IMG/VR virus record: IMGVR_UViG_3300044742_000189
Location: 1-57,784 of that record
DNA length: 57,784 nucleotides
Strand: one strand, 5' to 3'
Source: a virus
Both the position numbers and the translations under genes were made by a program. The notes under the pieces are model-generated. The model made no database searches. It saw only the letters and a list, made by a program, of their open reading frames with translations, and had not been told where the DNA came from. This document shows, one piece after another, positions 969 through 6,393 of the stretch (positions are counted from its first letter, which is position 1; every line of letters starts with the position of its first letter).

Positions 969-1186
969 CAGTCCAACAATCCTCTTTGCTCGGCATCACG
1001 ATGACGCTCGATGACCTCGGATTCCTCCAAGGCGTCGAGGATGACTGCTTCCATCAATCGCTGAGACATGGCGGGATGGGTGGCGATCTTTTCTGCTGCG
1101 AACGCCGCGATCTGTTCCTTGGTGGGCAACCCACGCGACGGATCGCCCTTGAGGGCTTCGCCGAAGAGATCGAGCAGCTTGCTCAT
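968..1186 (-). CDS. Small acidic protein between terL and portal
   Basis: 72 aa, unrecognised. The start ATG 1186 overlaps the terL stop (ATGA), and its stop overlaps the portal start (TGATG), so it sits in a translationally coupled terL-portal block. It is predicted helical and acidic (KLLDLFGEALKGDPSRGL, then EEIA-like helices) with no Cys or membrane segment. Its position suggests a packaging or assembly accessory protein, but this is only inferred from context. Confidence 0.8.
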   Translation of the reverse strand: MSKLLDLFGEALKGDPSRGLPTKEQIAAFAAEKIATHPAMSQRLMEAVILDALEESEVIERHRDAEQRGLLD

Positions 1187-1944
1187 GCGACCTTCCAGCC
1201 TTCCCCGTCATCGCCGCCGCTGCCATAGTCAGACCGATGCGGGCGAGGATCCGATCCACCTTCCAAAGCGTACCGCTTCATCATGACGGCGATGCGCGTT
1301 GCCGAGAGAATGTCGTCGGCCAGTTTCACGATCAGGCCGTCCTTGCGGTGATAAAGCCTGAATTCTTCGAGCCACTCATTCAGGTTCGAGAACACCTTGA
1401 GCCGGCCCGTCTGCATTCGCTCCAGCATTTCACTGATGCCGGCCTCGATCCCGAACCCGCCCGCATCGTGCGTTGCGTGCTCTTGCCACATGTTGAGACC
1501 ATGCGTGGCGTACTGGTCCTTGAGTTGCAGGCCGGAACTCTTGTCGTGCTGCAGGCCGTCATGCGGCCAGGCGACTGGTATCCACGCGCCCCATGGCTTG
1601 ATCGCCGCGGCATGAATGGGCGGCGTTGCCTGTCTCTCGCGATAGCAGGCCGTCACATAAATCGTATCGGTGTCCTTGTCCCATGCCAGCCTGGCGGCGC
1701 CGAATGGGTGATCCCAACCAAAGTCAATCCCGATGATCTGCGCCCAGTATTTGGGAATGGGGAACGGGTCGACCTTGATCTTGTCTTCGCTGACCGGGAA
1801 AACGCGACCAGAGCCTAGAACCGGGATACCTTTAGCGCGGGCTTCGCGCTCTGCCTCTGGGTAGCTGGCGACGATCGCGGCCCGTTGCTCTGGGCTGTAG
1901 TGCTCCGCATCATCGATTGTCATGAACGTGACAAAGCGGCTCAC
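1183..1944 (-). CDS. terL: Terminase large subunit, C-terminal nuclease part
   Basis: 253 aa corresponding to the RNase H-like nuclease domain of TerL, which cuts concatemeric DNA during packaging. It contains IIGIDFGWDHPF (first metal Asp, ~D74), WPHDG (~D129) and LADDILSA (~D210/D211), so the expected acidic triad is present. The ORF opens with GTG 1944 immediately after an in-frame TAG, and no clear ribosome-binding site precedes it. It is in the same frame as the ATPase half that ends at 2029. Together the two halves have the length and motif order of one normal terL, so this is a naturally split gene, a disrupted gene, or one joined by an unknown event. Confidence 0.88.
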   Translation of the reverse strand: MSRFVTFMTIDDAEHYSPEQRAAIVASYPEAEREARAKGIPVLGSGRVFPVSEDKIKVDPFPIPKYWAQIIGIDFGWDHPFGAARLAWDKDTDTIYVTACYRERQATPPIHAAAIKPWGAWIPVAWPHDGLQHDKSSGLQLKDQYATHGLNMWQEHATHDAGGFGIEAGISEMLERMQTGRLKVFSNLNEWLEEFRLYHRKDGLIVKLADDILSATRIAVMMKRYALEGGSDPRPHRSDYGSGGDDGEGWKVA

Positions 1945-2028
1945 GTGCTATATAGTCCAGTCACGACGCCCGTCCCGCTATGACCACTGGCTAGATGCTA
2001 GCTCGATGCCGGTGCGAGCGGGCGGGGG
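1945..2028 (-). other. 84-nt in-frame gap with stops inside terL
   Basis: This is the spacer between the two terL ORFs. Because it is exactly 28 codons long, both halves share one frame. With the TGA at 2031-2029 that ends the first half, the joined frame carries TGA, TAG and TAG. Homologous single-chain terminases, as I remember them, have only a handful of residues at this point, so most of the stretch looks like an insertion. No intron-like fold or matching take-off and landing codons were found by eye. Confidence 0.6.
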
Positions 2029-2796
2029 TCATTTCGTTAACCTCTCCACCATCTGCGGCGTCAGAAACATCCGCACTACTTCCGACATGCCTTGCAGCGG
2101 CGTAAACGTCATGATGGCGAACTGCCCGCGCTGTCCATTGTTGGTTCGGGTCAGCCCCTCGGTGTAAATCTCCAGCGGGGCTTCCTCATCGAACCAAACA
2201 CCATCCACGGTAGGGCCTTGCCACTTCTCGCGGCCCTTCTCGTAGCTCTTAAAGTACAGCAGGCTTTCGCCCTGCTGAACGTCACCACCACCGCCCCATT
2301 TGACAATGGCATTATCAAGAAGCCCAGTGACACCCATGGCTCGAGCAACTTGACCAAGAGCATCCTTGGGGACCATGCCGGTGCCCCACTCCTCAACCTT
2401 TGGGGGTGGGCCAATCAGGATGCGCTGCGGGTTGTCTCGGGTTGATTCCGACGTGACGCCCGACGCCCACAGGATCACGGGCTTGGCGAACGTGGCGCCT
2501 TCCCACCAATCAGGATACCGTCCGGTGAGGTGCATCGCCCATTCAGCCCCACCGGCGACAGTTTTTCCCAATTGGTTACCTGCCATAAAGAGGCGCTGGG
2601 AATTGAGTTCCTTACCGTTGCGGTGGAACTCAAGTTGCTTGCTGTACGGCTTATAGGTTCGCAGCTTATTAGTGGCGAGCCTTCGAGCCGCTTCCTTCTC
2701 GATCTTTGCTATCAATGCCCGCAGCGTCTCCGAGGAGGCTGGCTGCGAGAGCGGCGAGAGCGGCGAGCTGTTCGTCTGTGAACTCTGAAAGCTCAT
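2029..2796 (-). CDS. terL: Terminase large subunit, N-terminal ATPase part
   Basis: 255 aa carrying the packaging ATPase. Walker A is AGNQLGKT (residues ~72-79), Walker B is GVWFDEE (~199-205), and a coupling motif lies in FAIMTFTP. This half powers DNA translocation into the procapsid through the portal. The start ATG 2796 lies inside the 3' end of the small-subunit gene (128-nt overlap in another frame). The ORF ends at TGA 2029 just after the ATPase core, and the nuclease half follows in phase after 84 nt. All ATPase motifs are intact, which argues against simple decay. Confidence 0.9.
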   Translation of the reverse strand: MSFQSSQTNSSPLSPLSQPASSETLRALIAKIEKEAARRLATNKLRTYKPYSKQLEFHRNGKELNSQRLFMAGNQLGKTVAGGAEWAMHLTGRYPDWWEGATFAKPVILWASGVTSESTRDNPQRILIGPPPKVEEWGTGMVPKDALGQVARAMGVTGLLDNAIVKWGGGGDVQQGESLLYFKSYEKGREKWQGPTVDGVWFDEEAPLEIYTEGLTRTNNGQRGQFAIMTFTPLQGMSEVVRMFLTPQMVERLTK

Positions 2797-5018: not shown

Positions 5019-5455
5019 CGAGGATCGTATTGCCGGATCTTGGTCTCGAAGTGATCCGCGAGCTTGCGAGCGAGTTCTAGGGCTTCATGATTTGTGAAAC
5101 GGCCGACGCCTAGGTACGTCTTGTCCCCATCAGGGACGAGGTCGATCTGGGTGAGCTGGTTGGCGATGGCGTTGCGGGTGGCTTCGCTGGTCTGCAGGCG
5201 GCGCAGGTATTCCGGGTCGTTGGATGGGAGCTTGAGGGTTTCCATCCCCTCACGGATTGCCTCTGTGCTCTCAACAAGACGCAGCAGCAGATCATGGTCC
5301 TGCTCGGCTAGGAGCTTGTCGGCTTCGCGCTCGAGCGGATCGACCTTGTGATACCCACTAGCCGCGAGCAGTCGGTCCTCGCGTTCGGCTCGCGTGTCAG
5401 CTGCGCCGGAGACATCGCGCAGAGACATCAGCTTTGATTGCTTCTTGCGTGCCAC
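5015..5455 (-). CDS. Hypothetical charged helical protein
   Basis: 146 aa from GTG 5455, which overlaps the methyltransferase stop (TAGTG); its own stop overlaps the next GTG. It is basic at the N-terminus (ARKKQSKLMSLRDVSG), then strongly helical and acidic (READKLLAEQDHDLLLRLVE), with a final globular segment (KTYLGVGRFTNHEALELARK). The longer frame up to 5554 lies inside the methyltransferase gene and was rejected. No family was recognised. Confidence 0.75.
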   Translation of the reverse strand: MARKKQSKLMSLRDVSGAADTRAEREDRLLAASGYHKVDPLEREADKLLAEQDHDLLLRLVESTEAIREGMETLKLPSNDPEYLRRLQTSEATRNAIANQLTQIDLVPDGDKTYLGVGRFTNHEALELARKLADHFETKIRQYDPR

Positions 5456-6393
5456 TATGGTGCCTCCGAGAGGGTGAGCTGTTCTGGTTCTGGAGCTTTG
5501 GCGGACTCCACGAACATGTCGGGTTGATTCATGGCTTCGGTGATGCGACGACATGCGATCTCGAAGTAAGTTGGCTCTATCTCAATTCCGATGAAACGCC
5601 GACCAAGCTTCACACACGCGACGCCGGTTGACCCAGACCCCATGAACGGATCAAGGATGGTAGCGCCATCCGCTGACACAACCGTCAGCAGTTGTTTCAT
5701 GAGATCAACGGGCTTCTCAGTCTGATGCTCACGCTCAGATGAATGCATTCGCGGGATCGTCAGCACGTTCCCATAGTCAAAGCTGTGATAGGCGGCGGTA
5801 CCTTTTGCGAAATGCATCGCAAGCTCATGCTGAGCACGAAAGCCCGTCCCTAGCCCAGCATTCCCTTTGTTCCAGACCACAAGGTTCTGATAGCGGAATC
5901 GCGCACTTTCGATGGCCGGGGCTAGGTGGCCTGCCATCCTCCAATCCGTGAACGCCGTTAGCGTGCCCCCGTCAGGAAGTAACTGGTAGCACCAGCCCGC
6001 CACCGAGCTCATGAGCCACGAAATGCCCGCCGTCGTCATGTTGTCGCCAGCGAACCAACCAACATCGCGAATAGTCTCGGAGCGCAAACCCATCCCCTTC
6101 GCCTGCTTTTTGCCCGTCTCGGAGAACCCACCGCTGCAATACGGAGGGTCCATCACCACGGCGTCGACGCGCGGCAGAAGCGGCAAGATTTGGGTGCAGC
6201 CGCCCAGGTACAGCTTATGCGGCCCGATCCTCTCGCAGCGAAACGACACCAGCTTCTGTCTCATCGTATCAATGGCGAGGTCGTAGCACTTGGCGGAATT
6301 GTCGGCGGCGTCATAGCCGTCGTCTTCCACCCTCGCGTAATAGTTACGGAGGCAGTTGAGCAGAGCGAGGGGAGGCTTGCGCTTTCTGGCCAT
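5455..6393 (-). CDS. DNA methyltransferase, beta class (N6-A or N4-C)
   Basis: 312 aa. The catalytic motif DPPY (residues 82-85) precedes the AdoMet-binding motif DPFMGSGSTG (~248-257), the order that defines beta-class amino-methyltransferases. The target-recognition region lies between them. DPPY methylates an exocyclic amino group on adenine or cytosine. It resembles orphan phage and prophage enzymes and does not look like canonical CcrM around DPPY. No restriction partner is nearby. Likely roles are protection from host restriction or altering methylation read by GcrA-type regulators. The ATG 6393 start abuts the previous stop. Confidence 0.93.
   Translation of the reverse strand: MARKRKPPLALLNCLRNYYARVEDDGYDAADNSAKCYDLAIDTMRQKLVSFRCERIGPHKLYLGGCTQILPLLPRVDAVVMDPPYCSGGFSETGKKQAKGMGLRSETIRDVGWFAGDNMTTAGISWLMSSVAGWCYQLLPDGGTLTAFTDWRMAGHLAPAIESARFRYQNLVVWNKGNAGLGTGFRAQHELAMHFAKGTAAYHSFDYGNVLTIPRMHSSEREHQTEKPVDLMKQLLTVVSADGATILDPFMGSGSTGVACVKLGRRFIGIEIEPTYFEIACRRITEAMNQPDMFVESAKAPEPEQLTLSEAP

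Follow-up and report, generated by a model that had tools for sequence, protein, structure and literature searches.

For tailed phages, the large terminase subunit (TerL) is in use as a single-gene marker, and descriptions present it as a motor made of one chain. In the annotation of some actinophages, separate terminase genes appear under the names 'ATPase domain' and 'nuclease domain'. In phage P22, the large terminase gp2 is a single chain of 499 aa. Its ATPase fold has been assigned to residues 38-284 (PMC11728703). Several other phage enzymes are known to be encoded by genes in pieces. Thus, nrdA of phage Aeh1 is split by mobE, the topoisomerase of T4 is split by mobA, and the DNA polymerase genes 43A/43B of Aeromonas phages 25 and 44RR are associated with a seg gene or with intercistronic untranslated sequence; Aeh1 NrdA and 43A/43B have been reported to be functional (PMC2988022). 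In the Jug phages, terL itself is present as two to three ORF fragments split by group I introns, the splicing of which has been shown (PMC12363816).

The locus analysed here belongs to a viral record of 57,784 nucleotides (IMGVR_UViG_3300044742_000189), the whole of which is called the window. It resembles P22 gp2 in its sequence family (Terminase_6N plus Terminase_6C), its motifs, its nuclease fold (4DKW) and the P22-like head genes of the same genome, but its TerL is divided between two chains. We regard it, with a probability of roughly 0.85, as a natural two-gene large terminase of the P22 type, the separately translated chains of which would assemble into one TerL unit. As far as the open-access literature shows, a conserved TerL encoded by two genes, with the cut within the ATPase domain, is undescribed; the nearest case found there was that of the intron-split Jug phages. 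In the latter, splicing of the RNA restores a single coding region, whereas in the window terL no intron was found and half of the split cases have no spacer.

A cut inside the ATPase domain

The two genes lie on the minus strand and in the same frame: terL-A (2796 to 2029; 255 aa, from ATG to TGA) and terL-B (1944 to 1183; 253 aa, with a GTG start) are separated by 84 nt (1945-2028), and the joined frame is interrupted by a TGA, which is the stop of terL-A itself, and by two TAG codons. This layout, as well as the retention of the catalytic motifs, had been described in an earlier note made from the DNA letters, and both observations were confirmed. On the first gene, sequence patterns identify Walker A (AGNQLGKT, residues 72-79; 2560-2583, minus strand) and Walker B with the catalytic acidic residues (GVWFDEE, residues 199-205; 2182-2202, minus strand), while motif III (TFTP, residues 230-233; 2098-2109, minus strand) is recognised by sequence and alignment. 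The chain ends with the tail TPQMVERLTK (2029-2061 with the stop, minus strand), in which a helix is predicted at residues 247-254. This tail stands where fused homologues have a short linker (xxDDPGxx), and comparable ones, such as TDEEMKSMA or ADSEVEQMTK, are found in part of the split relatives.

The earlier note had drawn the boundary between an ATPase half and a nuclease half, and in this it was mistaken. In Pfam, where only Terminase families were found, terL-A matches positions 1-150 of the 215 of Terminase_6N (E 2e-20), whereas positions 163-212 of the same family are matched by terL-B (E 4e-6), which also covers positions 1-154 of the 155 of Terminase_6C (E 2e-19). On P22 gp2, the match coordinates place the cut between residues 243 and 249. 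Since Terminase_6N spans both ORFs and this position falls within residues 38-284 of gp2, the break is inside the ATPase domain according to sequence comparison, and terL-B carries the last 42 or so residues of that domain in addition to the nuclease. These residues of terL-B (1-42; 1819-1944, minus strand) contain a predicted strand, RFVTFMT, and two predicted lid helices. The solved P22 gp2 nuclease (4DKW) matches terL-B residues 43-227 (E 4e-53), so that the RNase H-like nuclease domain proper starts at about residue 43. Thus, an ASCE ATPase domain that includes both Walker motifs and motif III is present, spread over both ORFs, and so is the nuclease domain, but the two activities are not encoded on one polypeptide, taking into account the three in-phase stops and the 72 relatives that are split as well.

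An AlphaFold2 model was obtained for both chains joined through the read-through gap, with fused homologues in the alignment, and it is therefore no test of a two-chain assembly; its mean pLDDT is 81.7 and its pTM 0.70, and many of the gap residues are modelled with low confidence. The model matches the solved terminases of P22, D6E, T4, Sf6 and P74-26. Just past the cut it places a strand (residues 287-292) and two helices (302-311 and 314-321). From the order of these elements and the description of the D6E terminase (PMC5727402), the strand is predicted to complete the ATPase sheet and the two helices to form the lid.

The record bears a 127-bp direct terminal repeat, and for this reason it looks complete. 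The same genome encodes a portal protein, a head-closure protein Hc3 and a major head protein, the head genes being P22-like, and a DNA methyltransferase gene lies at 5455-6393 on the minus strand (phrog_67, E 1e-56).

Distribution and conservation of the split form

Relatives were collected by comparing each half with viral contigs and, for the first half, also with bacterial genomes, so that the counts apply to the best matches to the window and not to TerLs at large; in addition, some of the rows are closely related. Among the 192 loci retrieved (designated by L numbers), in which a few contigs were fetched twice, 91 are split, 96 fused and five incomplete. Once the set had been dereplicated and one locus broken at a different place taken out, and without counting the window, 72 clean and distinct loci, in phages and prophages, are split at the same site. 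In 68 of these 72, the codon homologous to residue 1 of terL-B is ATG, GTG or TTG, which is the case in none of the 90 distinct fused loci (Fisher 2e-41, a value that ignores relatedness). This recurrence lends strong support to the two-chain terminase that the earlier note had listed among its options.

The distance from the first stop to the second start varies among the 72 loci. The commonest arrangement, seen in 35 of them, is an overlap of 4 nt (ATGA/GTGA); three overlap otherwise, and the gap measures 0-60 nt in 14, 61-250 nt in 12 and more in eight. The frame between the halves also differs. The assembled genomes of named bacterial strains, cultured bacteria among them, hold the split form in prophages of Bradyrhizobium C9 (L172), Mesorhizobium B2-3-4 (L174), Denitrobaculum (L177, L181), Pelagibius (L184) and Propionivibrio (L173). 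In two prophages of Mesorhizobium amorphae, the gaps of 2.4 kb (L175) and 1.1 kb (L183) are full of unrelated or partial sequence, including in the latter a second, partial terL-B start, and these copies look to be decaying.

The closest relative (L002) shares 73% identity with the window in the first half and 79% in the second; it is also split, with a GTGA overlap of 4 nt and no gap. Between the two, dN/dS amounts to 0.19 for terL-A, 0.11 for terL-B and 0.13 for the 42-residue ATPase tail within terL-B, ratios that are approximate because dS is near 1. Both halves are under purifying selection, and neither gene looks decayed. The Walker A pattern was found in 61 of 63 split and in all 55 fused homologues, Walker B in all 63 split homologues, and these motifs, together with motif III and the nuclease motifs, are retained in almost every locus, split or fused.

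The window halves also match PHROG families 31467 (261 positions, about the length of terL-A), 5653 and 30463, which suggests that TerL half-proteins may already sit in databases, partly labelled as of unknown function. None of the three carries a description of a two-chain terminase.

Proposed translation of the two genes and alternative explanations

The most likely interpretation of the locus is a conserved two-part motor, ahead of gene damage or misassembly. It is proposed that terL-A would provide the ATPase core as far as motif III, where translation stops, and that terL-B, which has a GTG start of its own at a residue also used as start in dozens of relatives, would supply the final ATPase strand and the lid, both predicted, as well as the nuclease. 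The two chains would then associate noncovalently into a TerL-like unit able to package and cut DNA. From the sequence comparisons we infer the independent translation, the assembly and the function of such a two-part TerL. In relatives with the overlap, the second gene is likely reached by translational coupling through ATGA/GTGA. In the window, terL-B would probably be reached by re-initiation after the untranslated 84 nt, perhaps aided by a stem. This last step appears to be the weakest of the account for this phage, taking into account the GTG start, the lack of a Shine-Dalgarno (SD) sequence and the 84-nt gap.

The lack of a ribosome-binding site before the second half, which had been pointed out previously, was borne out, the anti-SD energy before the GTG at 1944 being -3.0 kcal/mol, as against a mean of -2.8 at random positions. 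However, the ATG of terL-A (-2.9) and several other genes in the window are equally weak, so that a missing SD is not unusual here. A good SD precedes terL-B in many gapped relatives (e.g., L183, L186, L021, L184, L174 and L004). In the gaps of L004, L007, L058 and, in weaker form, L013, a small recurring hairpin, GTGTC...CCGG(T/G)CTGACAC, is followed by an SD and the terL-B start.

The 84-nt insert (1945-2028, minus strand), with its two in-phase TAG codons, is GC-rich and could form a 13-bp stem pairing most of its length. Alone, its fold has a z of -1.39 and is equalled by 19 of 200 shuffled sequences, and with the flanks z is -0.43; a special structure is suggestive at most. No small ORF is contained in it, and an ATG overlapping the terL-A stop opens just 13 codons. 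The earlier note had advised a search for the same gap in relatives: the split site recurs, as described above, but the 84-nt sequence was matched only by itself in viral contigs (searched with the exact pattern), phages, plasmids and the fetched loci. The motif RTGA on both flanks was considered as a target-site duplication and discarded, given that each gene brings its own copy and the pair proves nothing. Inside the insert, CCAGTCACGACG (1957-1968, plus strand) coincides with part of the common M13 sequencing-primer site, probably by chance. An assembly error could concern the insert, of which no collection searched holds a copy, but the split is independent of it.

A damaged terminase, belonging to a dead or mis-assembled phage in which the gap is the product of decay, is improbable. 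The uniqueness of the gap sequence to this contig and the lack of an SD ahead of the second half would agree with such damage, and some prophage copies (L183, L175) do look decayed. Against it, 72 distinct relatives share the break, and the start codon is conserved, dN/dS is low in both halves, with intact motifs, the closest relative is split without any gap, and the record looks complete, with its terminal repeat and P22-like head genes. Purifying selection, kept motifs and recurrence in many genomes thus tell against the damaged phage that the earlier note had considered.

Neither does the joining at the RNA or protein level, offered in the same note, find support. A small intron, or a translational bypass of the gene-60 type, would take the 84 nt out of a continuous TerL, and it would be helped by halves that are in phase and by a gap that is foldable and a multiple of three; we consider it very unlikely. 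A group I intron needs far more than 84 nt, and no Rfam family, group I introns included, was matched in the window or in any of 13 relatives with a gap. A bypass would require a landing codon matching the AAA before the terL-A stop, which is absent from all 84 nt, and the fold of the gap is not clearly better than that of shuffled sequence. It is true that group I introns with confirmed splicing interrupt the terL of Jug phages (PMC12363816). In this family, however, the frame between the halves varies, and about half of the relatives (35 of 72) overlap by 4 nt, which leaves nothing to skip and no room for an intron or an intein in this class. A split intein was rejected for the window as well, since inspection revealed no intein motif at the end of terL-A (...VERLTK*) or the start of terL-B (VSRFVTF). 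Run-through translation is unlikely in view of the conservation of start codons at residue 1 of terL-B.

The least credible option is a -1 frameshift at the overlap of the overlapping relatives, yielding beside the two chains a fused product that would be the functional form. In eight loci with the 4-nt overlap, the terL-B frame is indeed open for 38-218 codons upstream of its start, but in many others this opening is very short, with 0 codons in L003, one in L161 and 4-7 in another fourteen. A slippery site common to them was not observed, and the mechanism is unusable in gapped relatives, as it is in the window with its in-phase stops.

The junction as a possible insertion site and the meaning of a two-gene TerL

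On a tree of 119 rows, the split and fused states require at least eight changes, of which seven are imposed by branches with good support; one of these concerns L193, whose break is elsewhere, leaving about six to seven at this junction. The split L021, whose junction holds an HNH gene, and the fused L019 are sisters on the tree. The fused TerL of L019 (51-2504) bears an apparent intein in its nuclease part (DDILSA|CLHPETEVITSEG...FAVANGAIVHN|CRYAMMM). An intact small ORF, often overlapping one or both terL genes, lies between them in L006, L022, L026, L044, L091, L100, L102 and L137, and HNH endonucleases occupy the junction in L021 and L128 (E 2e-12 and 1e-5, respectively).

Tree distances of the N- and C-terminal parts correlate with r 0.02 in split loci and 0.56 in fused ones. 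Despite this, the idea that splitting causes the shuffling of halves was abandoned, as there are few conflicts with strong support, and fused loci show clear swaps as well. Exchange of halves is seen in both forms alike: the second halves of the split L044 and L137 are 93% identical and their first halves 64%, and for the fused L121 and L129 these values are 87% and 56%.

Several features of the locus are shared with genes in pieces. An ancestral coding region with continuous homologues is found here as two ORFs (96 fused and 91 split loci, and the tree), a phage enzyme being encoded as two independent polypeptides, and homing endonucleases or untranslated sequence lie at the split site (HNH genes in L021 and L128, 84 nt in the window). 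The differences are that the enzymes described so far are others, and that many splits in the terL family are direct 4-nt overlaps, the family switching back and forth between the fused and the split state. It could be speculated, tentatively and with the odds somewhat against it, that the motor works with its ATPase split, each unit of the terminase ring consisting of two chains of which the second donates the last ATPase strand and the lid, that the junction is a slot for small genes, and that the folded 84-nt spacer gives access to terL-B without an SD.

If the two-gene form is widespread, gene-length filters and terL trees will miss or mislabel the phages that carry it. If the proposed assembly is true, the lid, a proposed transmitter between ATP hydrolysis and movement, can be contributed, along with the nuclease, by a separate polypeptide, and this would constitute a natural mix-and-match of parts and a test of coupling models. 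In sum, the packaging motor would then join the short list of phage enzymes encoded by genes in pieces, with both fused and split relatives available for comparison.
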